A stretch of DNA of 64,000 nt from Corallococcus macrosporus DSM 14697. GTDB taxonomy: Bacteria > Myxococcota > Myxococcia > Myxococcales > Myxococcaceae. Under the pieces are notes generated by a model. That model was not told the origin of the DNA, searched no databases, and was given only the letters and a program-made list of their open reading frames with translations. Of the stretch, positions 1 to 14,200 are shown one piece after another. Position 1 is the stretch's first letter; every line of letters starts with the position of its first letter. The stretch is from contig NZ_CP022203.1 in NCBI RefSeq assembly GCF_002305895.1, positions 4,938,501 through 5,002,500 on the forward strand, given 5' to 3'. Made by a program: the position numbers and the translations under genes.

Positions 1-1112
1 ATCTGGCAGTGGGCGCCGAGCAGGCAAAGCAGCCGGTGCAGCTCGGCGTATTCGAAATGCGTGCTCGGCGCGGCCCCGTCGGCGCTCCCTCCCGGCGGCG
101 CGAGCGAGCGGATGTCCATGCTCAGGTACACCCGCGGACAGTCCGCCAGACAGCGCACCAACGCGTCCTCGCCGCCCGCGTCCCTCAGCTCCGGCGCGGA
201 GAGCACGGTGAGGCCGGCCAGGGCCCGGTCCACCGAGCCGATGGCGCCCAGGTGCACATAGCGCGTCACGCCAGGAAGGCCGAGCGCGTGCGCCGGCAAG
301 GTGCCCGGTGAGATGAAGGAAGGATGGACGGCGCCACGTTCGCGCGCGTCAGCCGCGATCCTGACGACCGCGATCGGCTGTCGCGCCTGCAGACGGCGGA
401 TGGCCGGAAAGGCCACGGACGCATCGCCGCCGATCAGCACGGGCAGGCTGCCGGCCCCCGTCACCGTCTCCAACACGGCGTCGACGCGGCCGAACAACGC
501 CGCCTGCTCCTCCCCTCGGGTGATGAACACGTCGCCACAATCGGAGATCGTCGCGCCTCGCAGGATGGGGCGGCGGCGGTCGGCGTCGTACCAGCCCAGC
601 GGCTTGCCGCCGTGGCGGTCCAATCCGTAGAGAATCTGCAGCGACGCTTCCCGCAGCGCCGCGGGCGCTTCGCGCGCGCCAGCGGCCGAGCGGTCGCTGA
701 GATCGTAGGCGACGCCGAGCACGACGAAGTCCGAACTCGAGGGCTCCAGCTTCTGGGCGGGCGCGTCGAACATCCGCACGGGCGCGTCCGTGAGCAGGCG
801 GCGGCTCGACGCGTGCGTGTTCTCGCCGACCAGGAACCCCTTCGCGCGCAGGCTCTCCAGCGCGGCCCCCGCCTTGGCGCCGTACCGCCCGTCGCCGAGG
901 ACGGCGCTCACGCCGCGAGGCGTCTCGAACTCGAGGAGGAGCTTGTGCAACGCGATGGGGATGCGGATCCGGGTGCCATCCAACTGCAGATAGATGGTGG
1001 CGAACTTCTCGTCGAGCTGCTCGACCCGCATCGCGGGTGAGACGACCAGCCGCACCTCGTCCGCGCCGCCAGCCGGCTCGCGAGGGTCCGTCGGAGACAG
1101 AGCGTCCGCCAT
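1..1112 (-). CDS. RRE-fused arginase-like protein with degenerate metal site (C-terminus cut by window edge)
   Basis: Open reading frame with no stop before the left edge; about 370 residues are visible. The first ~95 residues look like a PqqD-type leader-binding (RRE) domain. The rest follows the ureohydrolase (arginase/agmatinase) fold: VVLGVAYD, a GWYDAD stretch, DCGDVF, then LIGGDAS. The family metal ligands are mostly gone: the His of GGDH is Ala (GGDA), the D-A-H-x-D strand reads RIAADARE, and the SIDID strand reads SMDIR. It is therefore probably not a catalytic arginase but a substrate-binding or scaffold partner. Its ATG overlaps the stop of the upstream oxygenase gene by one base (TGATG), so it is translationally coupled and the last visible gene of the RiPP operon. 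It resembles the protein at 3124-4350 closely, including the same lost ligands. The fold call is firm; the role is inferred. Confidence 0.8.
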   Translation of the reverse strand, partial: MADALSPTDPREPAGGADEVRLVVSPAMRVEQLDEKFATIYLQLDGTRIRIPIALHKLLLEFETPRGVSAVLGDGRYGAKAGAALESLRAKGFLVGENTHASSRRLLTDAPVRMFDAPAQKLEPSSSDFVVLGVAYDLSDRSAAGAREAPAALREASLQILYGLDRHGGKPLGWYDADRRRPILRGATISDCGDVFITRGEEQAALFGRVDAVLETVTGAGSLPVLIGGDASVAFPAIRRLQARQPIAVVRIAADARERGAVHPSFISPGTLPAHALGLPGVTRYVHLGAIGSVDRALAGLTVLSAPELRDAGGEDALVRCLADCPRVYLSMDIRSLAPPGGSADGAAPSTHFEYAELHRLLCLLGAHCQ

Positions 1113-2209
1113 CACACCGCTCCAGCCGCTGCCGGCTTGAGCTCCGGCGCCGCGTCTTCCTCGAGCGCCGCCAGCAGCTCACGCCTGACCCGCGCTGACC
1201 GCTCCGGCTGCGAGCCGGCCAGGGCGCTTCGAAGGACGCAGATCATCAGCTCGCGCCCGAGCTCCGGGTCACTGGCGCCCGTCAGCGCGTCATGCACGCG
1301 GCGGTCCGGGATACGCGTGCGAATCAGCTCCGCGTTCTTCCTCGCGAACCGGCCCAGCTCGTCCCTCCAGTCCACCGACTTCGCGTACGCGCGCAGGTTG
1401 AGGGCGTTGATGAAGTCGAAGCTGACGGTGGTCGAGTCCGACAGCGTCACGACGTGGTGCGCCCAGTTCGGTCCCCAGATGAGCAGCTCCCCGGGATTGA
1501 GCAGCCCGGTCCACGGGCGGGCTTCGCGCCAGGTCGGGAACTCGTCATCGTTGGGGTTCAGGGGGTCCAGGTAGCCGACGTCCGGGTTGTAGTAGTGGCG
1601 CTTGTCCTCGGCGCTGTAGAGGATCGCCCGCTTCTGCCCCCGCAGTTGCGCCAGGTAGGCGATGACCGCGTTGTTGTCCTGGTGCAGCGGCGTGAGCGCG
1701 CCCTTCAGGCTCACGTACAGCCAGACGTGGTTGCCTGACTGGTAGTAGTACGGGATCTCGTTGTTGAAGTGCTCCAGCGGCTCCGGGAGGATGGGGTCGA
1801 GCTGCGAGAAGACCTCCTCCCGGGCATGGCGGACCAGCCGGAGGTTCCCGCTGTACAGGGGCAGGCCGAGCTCCCGCAGGAGCTGCGCGCTGCCCTTCGA
1901 CCACTTCCCCTCGAAGAGCGCCTCCACGCGCTCCGGGGCCTTGACGTACTCCAGATAGGTCCCGAAGTCGGTCATCACCTGGCACATCTTCGCCTGCTTC
2001 TGGGTGACGAACTGCGGCGCGCCAGCCGTCACCGGCAGGTGCCCGAACATCTCGCTGAGCGCGTCCAGCTCGCCCCACCGCTTGCTGGCGAGCCACTTGT
2101 CAGTGAAGCCCCGCACCACGCAAGGCTGCCGGGTGAGCACGTCCGGCGACTTCTCCACCAGTTGGCGGAACGCTTCGAGGTCATAGGCGGGAATCGGTGT
2201 GGCTTCCAT
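1112..2209 (-). CDS. JmjC/cupin-8-like Fe(II)/2-oxoglutarate oxygenase
   Basis: 365 aa. Residues ~110-270 match the JmjC-like cupin family: LHQDNN supplies the HxD pair (H176, D178) and GPNWAHHV the distal His (H251 or H252), together a full Fe(II) facial triad. TTVSFDF after it matches the last strand of the cupin barrel. Enzymes of this family hydroxylate protein or peptide side chains using 2-oxoglutarate and O2. It lies between an arginase and an arginase-like gene in the RiPP operon, 42 bp after the arginase stop and overlapping the next start (TGATG), so a peptide hydroxylase acting on the precursor is likely. The ATG is preceded by GAGGGA about nine bases upstream. Substrate and site are unknown. 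No RRE-like domain is obvious, so delivery of the peptide may depend on partners. Confidence 0.85.
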   Translation of the reverse strand: MEATPIPAYDLEAFRQLVEKSPDVLTRQPCVVRGFTDKWLASKRWGELDALSEMFGHLPVTAGAPQFVTQKQAKMCQVMTDFGTYLEYVKAPERVEALFEGKWSKGSAQLLRELGLPLYSGNLRLVRHAREEVFSQLDPILPEPLEHFNNEIPYYYQSGNHVWLYVSLKGALTPLHQDNNAVIAYLAQLRGQKRAILYSAEDKRHYYNPDVGYLDPLNPNDDEFPTWREARPWTGLLNPGELLIWGPNWAHHVVTLSDSTTVSFDFINALNLRAYAKSVDWRDELGRFARKNAELIRTRIPDRRVHDALTGASDPELGRELMICVLRSALAGSQPERSARVRRELLAALEEDAAPELKPAAAGAV

Positions 2210-2251
2210 TCGGCGGTCCCTCGTGCCTGACGTGGATGATGAACAGTAGCG

Positions 2252-3127
2252 CTAGCTCGCGCGGTTCGAGCGCCCGAGCTGGGAATGCCATTGGTCCGCG
2301 GCCTCGCGAATGAGCTCCGCGGCGATCGCGCTCGTCGAGGTCTGGACGTCGAGCACCGGGTTGACCTCGACCACGTCGAGCCCCGAGATCCTGCGTTCGC
2401 GCACCAGCGCGCTCAGGATCCGGCGCACGTGCAGCGGGTGCAGGCCATCTGGCACCGGGGCGCCGGTGCCGGGCGCATGGAACGGGTCCACCGCGTCGAT
2501 GTCGATGGAGACGTAGCAGGGCAGCGCTTCCGGCACGAGCGCCAGGAGCTCGGCGTCGGACAGGTTGCGCGCGCGGGCCGAGGTGATGACGACGGCGTCA
2601 TCCCCCAGCGAGCGCTCGTCGCCCACCGTGATTCCCCGGTAGCCGATCTGCACGATCCTGCGCACGCCGGGCAGCTTCGACAGCCTGCGCAGCACCTGCT
2701 TGTGGTCGTGGAACGGCGTCCCCTCCCACGGGCTGAAGTCCGTGTGCGCGTCAATCCAGACCAGGCACAGGTCCCCGGCGGACTGCAGCACCGACACGGG
2801 CGCGTAGCTGATGGAATGGTCGCCGCCGAGGAACAAGGGGCGCAGGCCGCGCGCCAGGATGTCCTTCGTCGTCGCCGCCAGCCGCTCCAGGTAGCGCGCC
2901 AGGTTCGCCGGCCCCGCCACGTCGCCCCAATCGCAGCCAGGGACCCGAGGGGGTGCCAGGAGCTGGCTCGCCTCGCGTATCGCCGCGGGGCCCTTCGCCG
3001 CGCCGCGAGCGATCGGGTTGCCCAGGTCCGTCGGCGCGCCCACGACGCAGAGCGCGCCCGGCTCAGCCAGCGCCAGGCTGCGGTCCGGCCAGCCGAACAG
3101 CGACGCGCGCGGGCTTGCTCCGCTCAT
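2252..3127 (-). CDS. Complete arginase/agmatinase-family hydrolase, proposed peptide arginase
   Basis: 291 aa, the usual length of the family. All metal-binding motifs are present: GGDHS (H104), WIDAHTDF (D126, H128, D130) and SIDIDAVDP (D209, D211), so a binuclear Mn site should form. The family hydrolyses guanidino groups to release urea, giving for example ornithine from arginine. Its ATG overlaps the stop of the RRE-bearing pseudo-arginase gene (ATGA, 3124-3127). It is the only one of the three arginase homologues here with intact ligands and the only one without an N-terminal PqqD-like domain. In this operon I infer that it converts arginine residues of the precursor core to ornithine, guided by its RRE-bearing relatives. 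A free arginine or agmatine enzyme is the alternative. The family call is firm, the peptide substrate inferred. Confidence 0.92.
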   Translation of the reverse strand: MSGASPRASLFGWPDRSLALAEPGALCVVGAPTDLGNPIARGAAKGPAAIREASQLLAPPRVPGCDWGDVAGPANLARYLERLAATTKDILARGLRPLFLGGDHSISYAPVSVLQSAGDLCLVWIDAHTDFSPWEGTPFHDHKQVLRRLSKLPGVRRIVQIGYRGITVGDERSLGDDAVVITSARARNLSDAELLALVPEALPCYVSIDIDAVDPFHAPGTGAPVPDGLHPLHVRRILSALVRERRISGLDVVEVNPVLDVQTSTSAIAAELIREAADQWHSQLGRSNRAS

Positions 3128-4350
3128 CGCTCGGCCCCCCCATGGCCGCGGGAGGCCTCCATCGCGGTCAGCGCGAGGTCGCAAGCGACCGCCGCGGACA
3201 GGTGCGCGAGCCTTGACCGCGTGTCCAGGCCAACGAGGTCGATGCCGACGATGCGGTGCCGCTGGCCCAGCGCGGAGATCACCCCCCTGAGCTCGGCCTG
3301 TGACAGCCCGGCCGACACGCCGTGCTCGTCCGTCCGCATGCACTCCGGCGTCGTGAGGCCAAGGTCGATTGACAGATGCACGTCGCCGCCCCAGTCACAC
3401 GCCAGCGTGTCCAGGGGGGCGCGGCGCAGCGCCTCCACGTCGTACACCGTCACCCGGCCGCTCGGGCTCGCGGGGGGCGGCTTCAGCCCGCCCAGGCTCA
3501 CGAACCGCTCCACCCCTTCGAGTTCCAGGAGACGGGCCGCGACCTCCTCCGCCCCGATGACCTCGGCGCCCGACGCGGGAGACGTCGCCAGCTCTGCGGA
3601 GAGCCGGACGACGGTCAGCGGCCCCCGGCGTCGGAGCGCCGCGGCAACGGCGTACGTCACCGAGCCGTCCCCGCCAAGGACGACCGGCACCGCCCCCTCC
3701 CCCAGCGTCCCGAGGACCGAGGCGATCCGTCCGAACAGCTCGGCCTGCTCCTCTCCGTATTCGACGTAGACGTCGCCAGCGTCGGCCAGCGAGGCGCCCC
3801 GCATGATCCAGGTCTCCCGGTTCGCGTCGAACCAGCCGTTGGGACGGCCGTCGGCGATTCGCATCCGGTAGAGGTAATCGAGCGACTTCTGCCGGATCGC
3901 CGTCGGCGCGGCGCGGCAGTCGACGGCGCCCGCGAGGTCGTAGGGCACGCCCAGCACCACGAAGTCGCTGGCCGCGCCGTGGGCCGGCGCGTTGCAGAAG
4001 CGGTAGGGCACCGTCGTGCGCAGCCGGTCCGCGCGGACCGCGCGCGGCGCGTCGGCGTCGAGGAGGAGCCGCTTCTCCAGCAGCCGGCCCACCTGCGCGC
4101 GCGCCCCGGCCGCGGCGCCAGGCGGGACGACCTCCTCCAACCTGCGCGGCTTCGCGAACGCCTTCAGGAACTGGTAGGCGGCGGTGGACAGCTTCATGCG
4201 CGCCGCGGTGGCCGTATTCGCGACCGTGACGTGGGTCGCGTCCTGGCTCTCGAGGATCAAGTCGTCGGAGAGCACCAGGCGAATCGTGGACAGGTCGCCC
4301 CACCCCGCGGGTGAATCAGGCGCGTCGACTGAAGAATCCGGGTTGCGCAT
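3124..4350 (-). CDS. RRE-fused pseudo-arginase
   Basis: 408 aa. Residues ~20-100 resemble a PqqD/RRE winged helix (VLSDDLIL ... MKLSTAAYQFLKAF ... GRLLEKRLLL). Residues ~128-400 follow the arginase fold (FVVLGVPYDLAG, AGDVYVEYGEEQAELFGR, VVLGGDGSVTY). Nearly every metal ligand is replaced: GGDH is GGDG (229), the D-A-H-x-D strand reads VVRLSAEL (247-254), and SIDID reads SIDLG (only D329 kept). So it is very unlikely to hydrolyse guanidines itself. It is coupled to the intact arginase (ATGA overlap) and starts 21 bp after the M50 gene. A leader-binding subunit of a hetero-oligomeric peptide arginase is the simplest reading. It is a paralogue of the gene at the left edge. A weak GAGAGCGAG lies just before the ATG. 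Confidence 0.85.
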   Translation of the reverse strand: MRNPDSSVDAPDSPAGWGDLSTIRLVLSDDLILESQDATHVTVANTATAARMKLSTAAYQFLKAFAKPRRLEEVVPPGAAAGARAQVGRLLEKRLLLDADAPRAVRADRLRTTVPYRFCNAPAHGAASDFVVLGVPYDLAGAVDCRAAPTAIRQKSLDYLYRMRIADGRPNGWFDANRETWIMRGASLADAGDVYVEYGEEQAELFGRIASVLGTLGEGAVPVVLGGDGSVTYAVAAALRRRGPLTVVRLSAELATSPASGAEVIGAEEVAARLLELEGVERFVSLGGLKPPPASPSGRVTVYDVEALRRAPLDTLACDWGGDVHLSIDLGLTTPECMRTDEHGVSAGLSQAELRGVISALGQRHRIVGIDLVGLDTRSRLAHLSAAVACDLALTAMEASRGHGGAER

Positions 4351-4371: not shown

Positions 4372-5670
4372 TCAGGCCCCGCTGTGCCGGACCTGGGCCC
4401 GGAACGCCCAGAGCTTGCCAAGCAGATTGACCGCGCGTGTCGCCAGGCTCCACAGCGTGACGGCCGCGCCCGCGAGCATCAACGAACGCCAGAAGACCTC
4501 CAGGAACACCTTGAGCACCTCGATCAACGGCGCTCCCTCTCCAGCCGCCTGGACGAAGGCGCGCAACAACGCGGGGTACTCCTTGGCGATGCTCAGAATC
4601 ACGAACTGGAAGATCACCTTCAGGATGTAGGCCAGGAACACCGTGCCCAGCGCCGTGTAGATGCCAAGCGCCCACCTGGCCTTGCGGGTCAGGTTGACCT
4701 TCGGCCCTGGCTCCCGGACGCCAAAGAGCCTGCCTCCCAGGTGCTGAACCCAGAGCATCTGCTGCTTGCGCAGGTTCACGATGCCGAAGAAGTCGCTCAT
4801 CAGCCAGTAGCCGTCCATGCGGAGGAACGGGTTGAAGGTCGTCGCGATCGAGAGGTCGATGATGACGAAGGCGACGAGGAAGATGATGTCCCCGGTCCGC
4901 AGGAACAGCCCCAGCATGGCGAGCAGGAAGATCGATTCGAAGTAGACCCCGCCGATGTCCACGACCGCGCGCTGCCGCCGCGGGAGCTTCCAGGCGTCCG
5001 AGACGTTCGTCCAGAGGACCGTATAGATGATGTAGACGCCCCAGCCGATGGTCATCCGCCGGCAGCCGTAGTGAGCGGCGGCGCTGGCGTGCCCGAACTC
5101 GTGACAGAGGGTCCCCAGGGTGGAGAGCAGCATCACGGCCAGGACGCCCGTGGCGTCGAGCTGGCTGAAGTCGGCGCGCTGAGCCGTGAGCAGCACACCG
5201 TAGACGTAGGCGTGCGAGAGCACCGCCAGGATCAAGCCCAGCACCAGGGCCGGCGTCTTGAACATGAAGCCCAGGCGCCGGGCAATCGGCTCGACGACGC
5301 TGGGCGGGATGATGGGGAGCTTGATGAACAGGAACGCGCGCTTGGGCTGTGAGCTGACGCCCGCCCGCGAAGCGTCCTGATCCGGGTGAACGAGGATGCC
5401 CTTGGGGAGCAGCGACTTCTCGACCAGCCGCCGGAGCCAATCCCGCTCGAAGCTCCCCTGTCCGCGCTGCAGAAACGCGTCAATGGCTTCGTCAATGGTG
5501 CGGACCCCGTCGAACTCCCGCACCAGGTCCATGTAGGCCGCCGGCAGCGCGAAGCGCACCGCGTCATTCCCATCAGGGACGGCGCACATCACCATCGGCT
5601 TCGCCGCATCCGAGTCGAAGTCGGATACCTCGAGGTGGGGATTGGCCAGTGGGCGGGCGGGTTGCGTCAT
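4372..5670 (-). CDS. PqqD-like domain fused to M50-type membrane metalloprotease
   Basis: 432 aa from the ATG at 5670, chosen because AGGGAG stands at a good distance before it and 33 further in-frame upstream residues have no such site. Residues ~12-97 look like a PqqD-type domain. From ~118 on there are several hydrophobic helices, with HEFGH (190-194) in one and NPFLRMDGYW (280-289, Asp286) in another; these are the two metal-site motifs of the site-2-protease (M50) family. This architecture recurs in RiPP clusters, where the M50 protein is thought to cut or export the peptide. It is the first gene after the precursor, separated from it by a strong hairpin, so a leader peptidase or exporter acting at the inner membrane is a reasonable role. 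No ABC transporter is visible, which adds weight to an export-coupled function. Confidence 0.85.
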   Translation of the reverse strand: MTQPARPLANPHLEVSDFDSDAAKPMVMCAVPDGNDAVRFALPAAYMDLVREFDGVRTIDEAIDAFLQRGQGSFERDWLRRLVEKSLLPKGILVHPDQDASRAGVSSQPKRAFLFIKLPIIPPSVVEPIARRLGFMFKTPALVLGLILAVLSHAYVYGVLLTAQRADFSQLDATGVLAVMLLSTLGTLCHEFGHASAAAHYGCRRMTIGWGVYIIYTVLWTNVSDAWKLPRRQRAVVDIGGVYFESIFLLAMLGLFLRTGDIIFLVAFVIIDLSIATTFNPFLRMDGYWLMSDFFGIVNLRKQQMLWVQHLGGRLFGVREPGPKVNLTRKARWALGIYTALGTVFLAYILKVIFQFVILSIAKEYPALLRAFVQAAGEGAPLIEVLKVFLEVFWRSLMLAGAAVTLWSLATRAVNLLGKLWAFRAQVRHSGA

Positions 5671-5795: not shown

Positions 5796-5945
5796 TTACT
5801 CCACCGAGCGCTCGACCTGGGCGTCGCAGCGGCCGTTGCAGCGGCCGGCCAGCTCCAGACGGTCCTCAAGCTCGATGATCTCGAACTCGTCGATCAGGAG
5901 GCTCTCGTTCTTCTCAACCGTCACGGCGTTCTTGTCGTTGTTCAC
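5796..5945 (-). CDS. Putative RiPP precursor peptide, 49 aa
   Basis: Short gene read directly from the sequence: GTG start at 5945 with a near-perfect AGAGGAG six bases upstream, TAA stop at 5796-5798. The N-terminal ~32 residues are acidic (ESLLIDEFEIIELEDRLELA), typical of a leader recognised by PqqD-like domains. The C-terminal ~17 residues form a distinct core, AGRCNGRCDAQVERSVE, with a twin GRC repeat: two Cys (36, 40) and three Arg (35, 39, 46). It lies among radical SAM, acyltransferase, M50, arginase and oxygenase genes, with hairpins on both sides. The Arg residues are plausible arginase targets (ornithine formation) and the Cys residues plausible radical SAM crosslink sites. The leader/core border near LAGR is a guess. 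There is no signal peptide. Reading frame, start signal and context make this convincing; the product is unknown. Confidence 0.85.
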   Translation of the reverse strand: MNNDKNAVTVEKNESLLIDEFEIIELEDRLELAGRCNGRCDAQVERSVE

Positions 5946-6064: not shown

Positions 6065-7336
6065 TCACCCGTGGCACCGGACGGCGTCCCGCGACGCGAG
6101 CTGGCAGATCAAGCTCCACATCCGCGAGCGCACGTCGCTCGGGTGCTGGTCAAGCCACTGCAGGTCCACGCCCCGGCCTTCGTCCGCGAGGCGCGCCGCC
6201 AGGTCCATGATGGCGAGCGGAAACTTGTAGCAACGCCCGGTCATGGCGTCGGTCCAGACGATGTCGTTCTCACCCGGGAGCTCGACGATGCGCCGCGTGT
6301 CCATCACCACCCGGCCGCCCGTCCCCAGGTGCTCGCGCAGGCGCTGCTCAATCTCGTTGGCGGGATGCGTGACGGAGGGGGCCGGGAGCCGCCACTGGTG
6401 GAACAAGTCGCCGCCGCACCACTCGTCGGCATATGCGTTCAGCGCCTCGCCCAGGAAGGTGTACGCGCTCTGCACGGCCTCCTCGACGAAGCGCTCCGCG
6501 TCCGCGCCGCGCAGCGGCCCGCCCGGATCCAGGACCGGCCCCAGCCTGCACGCCCGCTGGCCGTCGAGGTTGTGGGCCACCATCGGGATGACCGGAGAGC
6601 CGAACCTCGCCGCCATGACGAACAACCCGTTCTTGACCCGGCACTCGCTCCCTAGGAGCGCGACCTTCGAGCGCCGCGCGTCTCCCCGCGTCCCGTCGTT
6701 GCCCGTGTTGCCGTCAATCGTGGAGAAGACCAGCTCGCCCCGTGCGAGCGCCTTGGCCAGCGAGATCGCGCCCGCGCGCGCCTCGACGTCCACGAATTCG
6801 AAGTGTTTCCAGAGCGCCGCGCCCGGGTTGCTGGCCCTCGCGGTCCAGTAGTCGTTGTACGAATCGCTGGCGAGCGGCAGGTGCGTCGCGATCCCCGCAT
6901 GCGCGAACTCGGAGGGGAGATAGCGCATGTGACCGAAGTGGAAGGACACCCCCACCACCCCACGGCCGCGCTCGAGCAGCGCGCGCACCTGCTCCAGGTG
7001 CGCCCCGTTCACTTGCGGCGCGTCAGGCGCCGACGTCAACCGCGGCAGGTAATGCTGATGGTACTCCCACCCGCCGAGGATCTTGCTGATCGCGGCGGCG
7101 CGCGCGGCTTGCGCAATCCGCTCCCGTGGCCAGTCACGGCCGAACAGCGACACGAGGTTGAGCCGGTAGGCGCGCAGTCCGAACGGCAGGAGCTCATCGT
7201 CGCTGAGCGAATGGACCAGGTCGAACACCTCGCTCCTGCTCACGTCGCTCCGGGCGAGCAGGTGCTTGACCCGATCGACCCTGGACGCGGTGGGGATGGC
7301 GGCGTTCTCGGGGGCAGCCCCCTGGGTCATCGTCAT
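6065..7336 (-). CDS. LpxL-like acyltransferase with C-terminal PqqD-like domain
   Basis: 423 aa. Residues ~115-310 resemble the lipid A / lysophospholipid acyltransferase (LpxL/HtrB) family: GVVGVSFHFGHMRYLP corresponds to the catalytic block and KVALLGSECRVKNGLFVMAARFGSPVIPM to the later substrate block. The expected H-x4-D/E dyad is not clear after H133 or H136, so the active site is unusual. Residues ~335-423 look like a PqqD/RRE winged-helix domain (RRIVELPGENDIVW ... LICQLASRDAVRC). No long hydrophobic anchor is obvious. The start overlaps the radical SAM stop (ATGA, 7333-7336). A leader-binding domain on an acyltransferase suggests that the RiPP is fatty-acylated, or that the fold has been reused for other peptide chemistry. 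The family call rests on motifs only. Confidence 0.7.
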   Translation of the reverse strand: MTMTQGAAPENAAIPTASRVDRVKHLLARSDVSRSEVFDLVHSLSDDELLPFGLRAYRLNLVSLFGRDWPRERIAQAARAAAISKILGGWEYHQHYLPRLTSAPDAPQVNGAHLEQVRALLERGRGVVGVSFHFGHMRYLPSEFAHAGIATHLPLASDSYNDYWTARASNPGAALWKHFEFVDVEARAGAISLAKALARGELVFSTIDGNTGNDGTRGDARRSKVALLGSECRVKNGLFVMAARFGSPVIPMVAHNLDGQRACRLGPVLDPGGPLRGADAERFVEEAVQSAYTFLGEALNAYADEWCGGDLFHQWRLPAPSVTHPANEIEQRLREHLGTGGRVVMDTRRIVELPGENDIVWTDAMTGRCYKFPLAIMDLAARLADEGRGVDLQWLDQHPSDVRSRMWSLICQLASRDAVRCHG

Positions 7337-8868
7337 GGCGCGCTCTGCTTGGCGTCGGGTGGCGTCTGCGACTCCCGCTCCTCTCCCCCGCTGTCTGCCT
7401 CAGGCAAGGCCGCTGCATCAGCGGCGGCGCGCTTCGCGCCATCCTGGGTGGCCTTGAAGTAGTCCACCATCTCTCGCTTGGCGGTGAAGCGGATGGTCGG
7501 GCAAGGACGCTGGTTGTAGTCCATGCGGATCTGCGGACAATGCACGCCCTGGCACGCCGGCAGGTTGTGGCAGCTCTGGCATCCGGTGTCCCGCTCGAAG
7601 GCCGGCTCGGTCCACAGGGCCATCTTGTCCGTGTTCAAATCGAGCGTGCCGTCGGGGAGGATCTTCCCGACGATGTTGCGGTCCTTCTTGTTGAGATCGA
7701 TGGTGCACTTCATCAGGTCGCCATGGGCGCCCACGATGAAGTTGTAGGGCCTGACCGCGTAGCACACGTCCGTCCCCACCCTGGCGCCGGGCCGCCACCC
7801 GCTGGTGACGCGCAGCCCCAAGGTCCGGGCCGCGGCCTTCAGCCGCATGTGCGCGGAATGGGATTCGTCCTTGCCGCAGACGTCCAGGTTGGCGTCGTTG
7901 CTCCCGCCCCAGCGTCCCACCGCGTGGAAGGAGACGGTGAAGCGATCATCCCCGCTGAACCTCTCCTGGAGGGACTTCAGGAAGGTCTCCAGCCCTTCGA
8001 CATTCGTCTTGGCGAAGTTGACGCGGATGACGACCGAGAAGTCGTCCTCGCGCTCGCTCAGCTTCACCAGGTTGTCGTAGATCGTCTGGTATGTGCCGCC
8101 GCCGTCGCGCGCCGGCCTGTGCTGGTTGTGGTGCTCCGGCAGGCCGTCCAGGGTGATCTGGAAGTCGGTGATGCCCCACGACAAGAGGCGGCCGGCCACG
8201 TCGTCCGTCAGCAGGTAGCCGTTCGTGGTCATGTGGCTGGAGAACCGCAGCCCTTCGCGCTTCGCAGTCTCCGCGAAGAACGGCGCCAGGTCCTCGATGG
8301 CCTCCATCCCGTACAGCGGCTCGCCCCCGAACCAGGAGACGTTGAACTCGCGCAAGGACCGGACACGGCTCTCCACGAGCTTCTTGATGCTCGCGCGCAC
8401 CTCGGGGCGCATCGTGCCGCGCTTGAAGTCCTCGTAGCAGTACGTGCACCGGAAATTGCAGTCCTCCGAGGCCAGCAGGATCAGCTCGAGGATGTCACTG
8501 CGGTGATTCGCCTGGCCGAACGCATACTGGACCCGGCGCAGCTCATCGGCCTCCTTCTCAATCAGGAAGCCTCTCTTGGAGAGGTAGCCGGTGATGCCGT
8601 CGTCGCTGGCGGTGATGCCCTGCTGGCTGAGCAGCTTGAGCACCGACTCGCGTTGCGCCGGGCGGAACGCGTTCAGCGACCCTGAGTAGGTGTTCCACAG
8701 CAGCAGCCAGCCGTCGTCCGTGAGCGCGTGGACATTGAAGCGCGAAGGCTTCCATTGCCGCTTCAAGGCGACCGGCTTGAGAGGGGTGCTCGCGGGTGTT
8801 TCACCGACCGAAGCGCTCGGCATCCGATCGAGAGGGGACTTGAAGAGGATGTCCTTGCCCGTTGCCAC
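7333..8868 (-). CDS. SPASM-domain radical SAM peptide maturase
   Basis: 511 aa, GTG start at 8868 with AAGGAGGT a few bases upstream. Residues ~40-115 form an N-terminal RRE-like region. C137-x3-C141-x2-C144 (CNFRCTYC) binds the SAM-cleaving 4Fe-4S cluster, followed by FGGEPL and TTNGYLL motifs. A Cys-rich SPASM domain (~370-465, including CQSCHNLPACQGVHCP) holds auxiliary clusters. A hydrophilic Ala/Glu-rich tail closes the protein. SPASM maturases install thioether, C-C or C-O crosslinks in leader-bearing peptides; here the likely substrate is the precursor at 5796-5945, with its two core Cys. It is the first gene of the operon and overlaps the next gene by four bases. The bond type cannot be read from sequence. 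Confidence 0.93.
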   Translation of the reverse strand: MATGKDILFKSPLDRMPSASVGETPASTPLKPVALKRQWKPSRFNVHALTDDGWLLLWNTYSGSLNAFRPAQRESVLKLLSQQGITASDDGITGYLSKRGFLIEKEADELRRVQYAFGQANHRSDILELILLASEDCNFRCTYCYEDFKRGTMRPEVRASIKKLVESRVRSLREFNVSWFGGEPLYGMEAIEDLAPFFAETAKREGLRFSSHMTTNGYLLTDDVAGRLLSWGITDFQITLDGLPEHHNQHRPARDGGGTYQTIYDNLVKLSEREDDFSVVIRVNFAKTNVEGLETFLKSLQERFSGDDRFTVSFHAVGRWGGSNDANLDVCGKDESHSAHMRLKAAARTLGLRVTSGWRPGARVGTDVCYAVRPYNFIVGAHGDLMKCTIDLNKKDRNIVGKILPDGTLDLNTDKMALWTEPAFERDTGCQSCHNLPACQGVHCPQIRMDYNQRPCPTIRFTAKREMVDYFKATQDGAKRAAADAAALPEADSGGEERESQTPPDAKQSAP

Positions 8869-9272: not shown

Positions 9273-9473
9273 TCAAAAGCACACAGGAAACTGCTCACAG
9301 AGGCAGCTGGAACCCATTGAATAGCACCGATAGACACAGGTGCAGCTCGCATCGGCGCACTGATCCGGACACCGATCAATGCTGGCTTGAGCCTCCGCTG
9401 GCCGGACCGTTCCCAGCATGCCTCCGAAAACAACGCCCACGACAAAGACCCACTTCTGGATTCCCTTGCGCAT
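9273..9473 (-). CDS. Small secreted cysteine-rich peptide
   Basis: 66 aa from the ATG at 9473, which has GAGAGG seven bases upstream; a longer frame from a TTG has no such site. Residues 1-28 form a clear Sec signal peptide (basic MRKGIQK, hydrophobic core, AEA before the cut). The mature part (~38 aa) has eight cysteines arranged as C-x3-C-x4-C-x-C-x3-C-x6-C-x-C-x4-C, so four disulfides are possible. I do not recognise the family; it resembles in general form defensin- or toxin-like disulfide mini-proteins. It lies between crtI and the RiPP operon on the same strand, with about 400 bp separating it from the latter, and is probably independent. The signal peptide argues against it being a substrate of the cytoplasmic radical SAM enzyme. 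Confidence 0.7.
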   Translation of the reverse strand: MRKGIQKWVFVVGVVFGGMLGTVRPAEAQASIDRCPDQCADASCTCVYRCYSMGSSCLCEQFPVCF

Positions 9474-9587
9474 GACAAATCCTCTCAATGGGACTGCGCG
9501 GCAAATCCTACCACACGAACCAACCCAGGATAGCCCCCCATCCGTGGCTCAACGCGCCATCACGTCCCACGCCCGTCGAAGCGTCCG

Positions 9588-11266: not shown

Positions 11267-14200
11267 ATGATGGATGTACCCGGCTACCGCATCGGCAGAG
11301 AACTCACCACCGCGGGCGCCTTCCAGCTCCTGCGCGCCACACGCGAGGAAGATGGCGCCCCGGTCCTCCTCAAGGTCCCCGACACCACGCGTCTTCCCTC
11401 GGCCACCGCGCGGCTGCGCCATGAATGGGAGCTGACGAACGCCCTGAACCTCGACGGCGTCCTCCAGCCCCTCGCCTGGACTGAAGCACGAGACGGCGCC
11501 CCCGTGCTCGTCCTGGAGGGCTTCGGCGACGCGACGCTGGCACAGCGCCTGTCCCACGGCCGCGTCGAGCCCCGCGCCGCCTGCCGCATCGCGCTGTCGC
11601 TGGCGCGCGCCCTGGGCGGCATCCACGAGCAGGGCATCCTCCACCGGGACCTGAACCCCAGCAGCATCGTCGTGGGCACGGACGGCGAGTCCGTGAAGCT
11701 CACCAGCTTCACCCTCGCCACGCGCCGGCCCCGCGCCGAGGTCGCGCCGCTCGCCCCCGAGCGACTGGAGGGTACGCTCGAATATCTCTCGCCCGAGGGC
11801 ACGGGACGAACCCACCGCAGCGTGGACTCGCGCGGCGACTTCTATTCCATGGGCGTGGTGCTCTACGAGCTGCTCACCGGCCGCCGCCCCTTCGCGGACA
11901 CGGATGCGCTGGGCCTCATCCACGCCCACGTCGCCCTCCCCCCGGCGCCGCCCGTCACCGTCGAGCCCGGGCTCCCCCAGCCCCTCTCCGACATCGCCCT
12001 CAAGCTCCTCGCCAAGTCCCCCGAGGACCGCTACCAGAGCGCCTACGGGCTGGTGGCGGACCTCCAGCGCTGCCTGAAGGCCCTGGAGGCCCCGGGGCCC
12101 GTCGCCCCGTTCATCCTGGGCGCCAAGGACGTCCCCGAGCGCTTCGCCGTCCCCGAGAAGCTCTACGGCCGCGAACCGCAACAGGCGGCCCTGCGCGAAG
12201 CCTTCGAGCGCGCCGCCTCGGGCCGCTCCGCCTTCGTCCTCGTCTCCGGGGCCGCGGGCATGGGCAAGTCCGCCCTCACCGGGACGCTCAAGCGCCCCGT
12301 CACGGAGCGCCACGGGCACTTCGCGCGCGGCAAGTACGACCAGCTCCTCCGCGACACACCCTACAGCGGCATCTTCGAGGCCTTCCGCGAGGTGGCGCGC
12401 GGACTGCTCGGCGAGCAGGAGCACGACCTGGAGCGCTGGCGGCATCGCCTCCTCGAAGCCGTGGGCGGCATGGGCCGGCTCGTGGTGGACGCGGTGCCTC
12501 GCATGGCCCTGGTGCTCGGGGACCAGCCCCCCGTGCCCGAATTGGGGCCCGCGGAGTCGGAGCTGCGCTTCCAACTCGTCCTGCGCAAGCTGGTGGGGGC
12601 GCTCGCCTCGCGGGAGCACCCGCTCGTCCTCGTCCTGGACGACCTCCACTGGGCGGACAGCACCAGCCTGCAGCTCCTCCGGCTCCTCCTGACGGACCGG
12701 GACATCGAACACCTGCTCGTCATCGCGGGCTGCCGCGCCGAGGAGCTGAGCCCCGACCATCCCGTCGAAGGCCTCGCCCGCGCGCTGCAGGAGCACGGCA
12801 CTCCGGTCCACCGCATCGACCTGGCGCCGCTGTCACCCGAGGACATGACGCGGCTGGTGTCGGACGTGTTCCCTCCCGCCGAGGGACAACCCGACGCCCA
12901 GCTCGACGACCTGGTGCTGTCGTTGTCGGAAGGCAACCCGTTCCACGCCGTGCAGCTCCTGCGCACCTTCTACGAGCGCGGCCTGGTGCGCTTCGACGCG
13001 GACGGCGGGGGCTTCCGCTGGGATGCCACCGCGCTGCGGGGCCAGGACTTCAGCGACGGCGTGGTGGCGCTGCTCACCTCCCGCATCCGCGAGCTGTCCT
13101 CGTCCGCCCAGGCCCTGCTGCCCATGGCCGCGGCGCTGGGCCACACCTTCGACCTGCACAGCCTCGCCATCGTCCTGGAGCACACCGACGAGGAGGCCGC
13201 GAAGGGCCTCGGCGAGGTCCTGCAAGCCGGGCTCGTGACGCCCATCGACGACGCCGACGTCGACACCGGGGGCACGTACCAGTTCACCCATGACCGCGTG
13301 CAGCAGGCCGCGCTGGAGCTCATCCCCGCGGACGTGCACCCGGAGATTCACGCGCGCATCGGCCGGCTGCTGCTGCGGCACACGCCGCCGGAGCGGCTGG
13401 ACGAAGGGCTCGCGGAGCTCGTCAGCCACTTCCACCTGGCCTTGCCCGTGCTCCATGACGAGCAGGAGCGTCACCGCGTCGCGGAGCTGGATCTGCGCGC
13501 CGGCCGCAGCGCCAAGTCTCGCGGCGCCTGGGACGCGGCCCGGCGGCTGCTGAGCACGGGCCTGTCGCTGCTCGGCGACGACGGCTGGCGGAAGGACCGG
13601 CGGCTCACCTTCGACCTCCACGTCGACGCGTCCGAGGCCGCCTACCTCGCGGCCGACTTCGACCAGATGGAGCGGCTGGCGGCGGCGGCGCTGGCCCAGG
13701 CGGTGGACGGCGCGGAGGAGGTCCGGGTGCAGGAGGTCCGGCTCCAGTGCCTCGCGCACCGGGGCGAGCACTCGCGCGGCGTGGACCTGGGCCTGGAAGT
13801 GTTGCGCAAGCTGGGCCAGCCCCTGCCCGCGAACCCCAAGCAGCCCCACGTCCTGGCCGCGGTGGCGAAGACGAAGCTGCGCCTGGGCCTGCGCAAGCCC
13901 GAGGACCTGGCGGCCCTGCCCGAGTGCACCGATCCGCTCCTGCTCGCCACCCTGCGGCTGCTGGTGAAGCTGTCCTCGCTGGCCTTCATGGCCCGCCCGC
14001 TGCTGTTCCCGCTGGTGGTGCTCCGCGTGCTCCAGCTCACCATCCGCCACGGCGCCACGGGCGTGGCCGCGTTCGGCTACGTGGGCTACGGGTTGATGCT
14101 GAGCGTCCACCTGGGCAACCCCGAGGAGGGCTTCCGCTACGGCCGGCTGGCGCTGAAGACGCTGGACCGCTTCCACGCGGAGAGCCTGCGGGCCATGGTG

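Follow-up and report, generated by a model that had tools for sequence, protein, structure and literature searches.

Two pairs of intact and degenerate arginases in a RiPP operon of Corallococcus macrosporus: candidate heteromeric arginine-to-ornithine modules

An operon that would yield a ribosomally synthesised and post-translationally modified peptide (RiPP) lies at the start of a 64,000-nucleotide stretch of the Corallococcus macrosporus DSM 14697 chromosome (contig NZ_CP022203.1, positions 4,938,501 to 5,002,500), hereafter the window. It encodes two pairs of arginase-fold proteins, each composed of an intact PF00491 arginase and of a degenerate paralogue (pseudo-arginase) with an N-terminal domain resembling a RiPP recognition element (RRE). 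With moderate confidence, we propose that these pairs are two dedicated Arg-to-Orn modules, each being a heteromer whose leader-binding domain is carried by the dead subunit. This division of labour is supported by the RRE fold, by the old, paired retention of the genes in two phyla, by their overlap, and by the precedent of metformin hydrolase. A sequence-only reading of the window had described a trio of adjacent arginase-fold genes in one operon, with one complete enzyme between two pseudo-arginases. The three open reading frames (4350-3124, 3127-2252, and 1115-<3, minus strand) do match PF00491 and share an operon. However, a cupin-8 gene (2209-1112) separates the intact arginase from the second pseudo-arginase, and the complete operon has four arginase-fold genes forming two pseudo/intact pairs. 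The count of three was wrong because the window edge cuts the operon, the second intact arginase being located just beyond position 1. With an intact partner for each dead protein, the evidence does not support one enzyme serving both pseudo-arginases; the core idea, in which the dead protein binds the leader and the live one catalyses, is kept as the best reading and survives, partly supported, as two live/dead pairs instead of a trio.

The operon starts with a radical SAM/SPASM gene, followed by genes for a 423-aa protein, the 49-aa precursor, an M50 metalloprotease, pseudo-arginase A, arginase A, cupin-8 A, pseudo-arginase B, arginase B, cupin-8 B, and an FtsX-type permease. Downstream of the precursor and M50 genes, the layout is thus that of a duplicated triad (RRE-fused pseudo-arginase, intact arginase, cupin-8 hydroxylase), whose two copies are paralogous, with identities of 36% between pseudo-arginases A and B, 46% between the arginases, and 42% between the cupins. 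A PF00491 search of the whole 8.97-Mb genome returned five matches, four within the operon and one at 5471849.

The state of the active sites was assessed by aligning 25 arginase sequences, of which ten are pseudo, ten intact, and five RRE-fused. All six metal ligands and the equivalents of the catalytic His and Glu are found in every intact and RRE-fused sequence. In the pseudo-arginases, by contrast, the catalytic His and Glu are gone, and one ligand (seven sequences) or two (three sequences) remain. The first Asp of the SIDxD motif is the sole ligand common to all ten, a second Asp being also kept in Luteibacter and G448 pseudo-arginase B. Both pseudo-arginases of the window still match PF00491 (69.8 bits for A and 68.4 bits for B, cut-off 22). 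In an AlphaFold2 (AF2) model of pseudo-arginase A built from 14 sequences (mean predicted local distance difference test, pLDDT, of 77), residues 115-408 adopt the ureohydrolase fold, with Z 30.9 to 1gq6 (root-mean-square deviation, rmsd, 2.8 over 267) and Z 30.5 to 1wog (rmsd 2.8 over 271); Z is around 30 to agmatinases. Because the sequences align in register and the fold is that of a ureohydrolase, the ligands have been lost rather than shifted, and the near-complete loss that had been described for the two flanking proteins is real, each retaining one ligand of six. Judged from these residues, pseudo-arginases A and B are members of PF00491 by descent but not active ureohydrolases. Within the window, a full set is restricted to arginase A, as had been stated (GGDHS, DAHTD, and SIDID, six of six, with the catalytic His and Glu equivalents), but in the whole operon arginase B is equally complete. 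The two intact proteins have the residues expected of active PF00491 ureohydrolases, and are predicted to convert peptidyl Arg into Orn and urea. None of the window's three arginase-fold proteins matched PF12640, the family of the OspR-type enzymes, up to an E-value of 1.

Both pseudo-arginases have an N-terminal domain of ~90 aa. It had been described as PqqD-like, an assignment that stands: the model of the first resembles RREs and the second aligns with the first. In the AF2 model of the isolated domain of pseudo-arginase A (block pLDDT 85-91), strands 24-27, 31-36, 40-45, and 50-55 are followed by helices 56-66, 71-74, and 77-92. The modelled domain thus has the beta strands followed by three helices of the PqqD-like winged-helix fold that characterize an RRE. 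Its fold matches include TigE (8vpo, Z 11.7, rmsd 2.3 over 87), the TbiB1-leader structure (5v1v, Z 8.4, rmsd 2.6 over 77), the PbtF RRE (8t19, Z 8.1), a lasso B1 protein (Z 7.6), and PqqD (5sxy, Z 6.9), with heterocyclases, NisB, MccB, the sactipeptide maturase 5wgg, and SuiB further down. Several of these matches have Z below 8 and would be weak if alone, and some unrelated chains are present, but the top of the list consists quite consistently of RRE-bearing RiPP enzymes, which argues that the domain is an RRE. Some of the matched RRE structures were solved with a leader bound. A profile search with the domain among PDB sequences gave no match, RREs being detected by the fold search alone. 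In a profile-profile comparison, the domain matched the N-terminal domain of RRE-fused active arginases (probability 93, E 2.5e-7). It is present in all ten pseudo-arginase sequences, with a mean column identity of 52%. The RRE of the pseudo-arginases is predicted to bind the leader.

Single-chain RRE-fused arginases with six ligands are encoded in other families of the phylum (L034 5394-6599, L035 9697-10902, L036 2632-3834, L037 6128-7408, and L038 9190-10491). At L036 and L038, they are adjoined by a small protein and by an Arg-containing protein of ~130 aa, and L036 also has a cupin-like gene. These loci may represent a further system for deguanidinating peptides or proteins.

The same operon was found in Myxococcus vastator and in three gammaproteobacterial genomes (Luteibacter sp. 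SG786, L. jiangsuensis, and G448), which makes five genomes of two phyla with that of the window. Relatives of pseudo-arginase A are present in 2 of 96 genomes of the family, and full-length relatives in 3 of 398 genomes of the order of Luteibacter. A scan of one genome per species (84,980 species) retrieved M. vastator and the two Luteibacter, and a class-level search in Gammaproteobacteria gave only matches to the arginase domain alone. The patchy distribution of pseudo-arginase A suggests horizontal transfer. Relatives share the gene order, and their modules A and B each match the module of that name in the window: between Luteibacter SG786 and the window, identity within and across modules is 58% versus 47% for arginase A, 62% versus 44% for cupin A, and 46% versus 32% for pseudo-arginase B. 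Pseudo and intact genes are paired in every operon, and overlap by 1 or 4 nt at the eight junctions inspected (8/8). In G448 (L053, reverse strand, after position 12717), no cupin B was recognised beside pseudo-arginase B and arginase B, both of which are retained; the gene order is otherwise the same.

In a tree of 41 sequences, pseudo-arginases A and B form one clade (support 100/99) and intact arginases A and B another (95/95). The derivation of pseudo-arginase A from its own intact neighbour was rejected by the approximately unbiased (AU) test, a clade uniting the two having a p-AU of 2e-16. Since there are two separate clades and this grouping is rejected, the split between pseudo and intact proteins came first; the sequences thus indicate that the pair arose once and was later duplicated as a unit. 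Using a simple counting method without codon-bias correction, the ratio of nonsynonymous to synonymous substitution rates (dN/dS) was 0.33 and 0.34 for the pseudo genes in Myxococcus and 0.26 and 0.15 in Luteibacter, with 0.21 and 0.22, and 0.10 and 0.19, for the respective intact genes. These values indicate purifying selection on the dead copies.

The precursor of the window is VNNDKNAVTVEKNESLLIDEFEIIELEDRLELAGRCNGRCDAQVERSVE. That of M. vastator ends in LELAGRCNGRCDSQVERSVE, that of G448 in LELANRCNGRCDGQTKPPAAA, and those of Luteibacter in LELAGRCNGRCDGQSKPTSA and LELADRCNGRCNKTSQPTGG, with two copies in each of the two Luteibacter, encoded by tandem genes (L042 8209-8349 and 8422-8574). 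RCNGRC is invariant across precursors, so that the core GRCNGRC holds two conserved Arg-Cys units. The window core has a third Arg, which is not invariant. By sequence, the combination of a radical SAM maturase, a PF00491 arginase, and a G-R-C core is of the enteropeptin type. Enteropeptin A is MKGOCPPS, where O is an N-methylornithine engaged in a thiomorpholine with the next Cys, and its PF00491 arginase, KgrD, needs the thiomorpholine beforehand (PMC12703449, PMC12395415). In pathways of that type, the thiomorpholine links the S of the Cys to the C-alpha of the Arg. No match to an ornithine N-methyltransferase was obtained among the window's operon proteins scanned, including the 423-aa protein without family. 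The radical SAM protein has as its best solved relative the sactipeptide thioether maturase 5wgg (E 1e-14); on this ground and on that of the KgrD order, a radical SAM cross-link at R-C followed by deguanidination is the likely sequence of events.

In the mechanism that we propose, the operon would yield a RiPP from the 49-aa precursor and its two Arg-Cys units, on which the radical SAM enzyme probably acts first by cross-linking at R-C. The RRE-bearing pseudo-arginase and the RRE-less active arginase would co-assemble as a hetero-oligomer, in which the RRE of the dead subunit would hold the leader and the live subunit would hydrolyse a core Arg to ornithine and urea. The cupin-8 encoded beside each pair probably hydroxylates the product, and there may be one module per Arg. 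A further proposal, which is put forward only tentatively, is that the dead RRE-bearing arginases are regiospecific adaptors, with pairs A and B acting on one shared precursor and each dedicated to one Arg-Cys unit. If true, duplicated leader-docking pseudoenzymes, beyond the catalytic subunits alone, would decide which Arg becomes (hydroxy)ornithine.

Several points weigh against these proposals. The idea of one module per Arg is based on counting. Gene overlaps also occur elsewhere in the operon, so that coupling is no distinctive feature of the pseudo/intact pairs. In Myxococcus, the pseudo genes evolve faster than their intact partners. As for the origin of the pairs, the AU tests leave undecided whether pseudo and intact arginases are each other's closest relatives. 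Complementary loss from a single RRE-fused ancestor is attractive because RRE-fused arginases exist, but the tests neither support nor reject it, and it is not claimed here.

Four other explanations of the pseudo-arginases were considered. They could serve the whole pathway, cupins included, as an independent scaffold that binds the leader and stays outside a homo-oligomeric intact arginase. Each triad has one pseudo-arginase and one cupin, G448 excepted, and cupin A has only a cupin-8/JmjC match, with no extra domain or RRE seen in the Pfam scan, which would leave room for such a scaffold. We nevertheless regard it as unlikely, since a scaffold of ureohydrolase fold beside a ureohydrolase enzyme most simply means co-assembly, as in metformin hydrolase, and since the B pair of G448, which lacks a recognised cupin B, speaks against a cupin-only role. 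Metformin hydrolase is a ureohydrolase heterohexamer with dead subunits, in which the degenerate subunit has lost four of the six ligands and is essential for activity (PMC11399263). That subunit is needed for solubility as well as activity, yet is no leader binder, and so also illustrates how a pseudo-arginase might merely regulate or stabilise the intact enzyme (folding, metal loading, timing), the RRE being of minor importance. The presence of the N-terminal domain in all ten pseudo-arginases, variable as it is, makes this explanation quite improbable. New chemistry at the former active site might account for the retention of the remaining aspartates, but the other ligand positions vary freely among orthologues and no new conserved residue set has appeared there, so that we give it very little credence. 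Finally, decaying copies without function, which the lost ligands might suggest, are very hard to reconcile with reading frames that are full length in all five genomes, across two phyla, with a dN/dS far below 1, and with conserved gene order. The two-subunit modules thus remain our preferred reading.

Table 1. Genes and domains of the operon (window positions unless a contig position is given)
Feature	Position	Strand	Basis or remark
Radical SAM/SPASM RiPP maturase, 511 aa, first gene of the operon	7333..8868	-	Pfam PF04055
Protein without known family, 423 aa	6065..7336	-	Orthologues in all five operons, 47-87% identity
Precursor peptide, 49 aa, GTG start	5796..5945	-	Leader end LLIDEFEIIELEDRLELA, core GRCNGRCDAQVERSVE
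M50-type HExxH intramembrane metalloprotease	4372..5670	-	NCBIfam daptide_HExxH E 1.1e-24, below cut-off
Pseudo-arginase A, 408 aa, N-terminal RRE and degenerate ureohydrolase domain	3124..4350	-	PF00491, 1/6 ligands
RRE-like domain in pseudo-arginase A	4036..4293	-	AF2 model of isolated domain and fold search
Intact arginase A, 291 aa, six ligands, no RRE	2252..3127	-	PF00491 E 5.9e-57; ATGA overlap with pseudo-arginase A
Cupin-8/JmjC-type hydroxylase A, 365 aa	1112..2209	-	PF13621 E 1.6e-17
Pseudo-arginase B, 408 aa, RRE and degenerate ureohydrolase domain	1..1115	-	1/6 ligands; last 111 bases outside window
Intact arginase B, 297 aa, six ligands	contig 4937499-4938392	-	Outside window; 4-nt overlap with pseudo-arginase B
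Cupin-8 B	ends at contig position 4936351	-	Outside window, after arginase B
FtsX-type permease			After cupin-8 B, outside window

Other genes of the operon (Table 1) are less easily assigned. The nearest NCBIfam family of the radical SAM protein is TIGR04463, with a score below that family's cut-off. For the 423-aa protein, no Pfam match was found for any of four members, nor any convincing PDB relative; an HFG-like motif led to the mere guess of an acyltransferase, unsupported by these searches, and the impression by eye of an RRE-like C-terminal part received no support from profile comparison. The N-terminal region of the M50 protease matches the pseudo-arginase N-terminal domain weakly (profile-profile probability 53) and is possibly RRE-like. 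Solved relatives of cupin A include FIH and JMJD5, the latter deposited as an arginyl hydroxylase. FtsX-type permease genes, perhaps with a role in export or immunity, flank the operon on opposite sides in Myxococcus (L006 8312-10930, minus strand) and Luteibacter (L042 2598-5201). In Luteibacter, genes resembling those of ATP-grasp and TauD-type oxygenase proteins follow cupin B (L042 16267-18379). Upstream of the radical SAM gene of the window, a 71-aa protein without family match (9273-9488, minus strand) has a signal-like N-terminus followed by eight Cys.

Known RREs are either stand-alone proteins or part of the enzyme that they serve. The N-terminal domain of the pseudo-arginases has the fold of PqqD, TbiB1, PbtF, and the TigE N-terminal domain, but in this operon the protein that carries it is a dead paralogue of the catalyst, and no paper on a dead arginase carrying an RRE was found in the open-access literature. 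If our reading is true, placing a leader-binding domain on a dead paralogue would be a new way to turn a small-molecule enzyme fold onto peptides, and the live/dead pairs would be a natural test of pseudoenzymes taking over substrate recruitment. The question is directly testable, given pairs of ordinary size, a 49-aa substrate, and five genomes. The pairs could also serve as tools to install ornithine at chosen sites.

Among known systems, the metformin hydrolases (MefH alpha/beta, MfmAB, MetCaCb) likewise have tandem ureohydrolase genes, with one subunit retaining six of six ligands and the other degenerate (PMC11399263). The genes described here are also in tandem, with one degenerate, and are retained together, from which we infer a physical complex. 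Metformin hydrolase differs in its small-molecule substrate, its single pair, the HypA/B nickel chaperones of its operon, and the lack of a reported leader-binding domain (PMC11399263). KgrD is a PF00491 arginase encoded beside a radical SAM maturase and acting on a G-R-C core, a motif found twice in the window core (PMC12703449, PMC12395415). However, no pseudo partner has been described for KgrD, an N-methyltransferase is found there instead of a cupin-8, and the present operon has two GRC units and two arginases. OspR-type enzymes (PF12640) also produce Orn from Arg within the core of a RiPP, but belong to a different Pfam family with different motifs, and are homodimers with their own dimerisation domain, the leader being thought to sit in the dimer cleft (PMC10028609). 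Finally, in a biphenomycin-like pathway, the arginase PbsE and then the cupin PbsQ produce Orn and then hydroxy-Orn (PMC12257519). PbsE is a PF12640 arginase (PMC12703449) and the RRE protein of that pathway serves an MNIO (multinuclear non-haem iron-dependent oxidative) enzyme, but the succession of an arginase and an ornithine-hydroxylating cupin provides a precedent for the cupin in each triad (PMC12257519).

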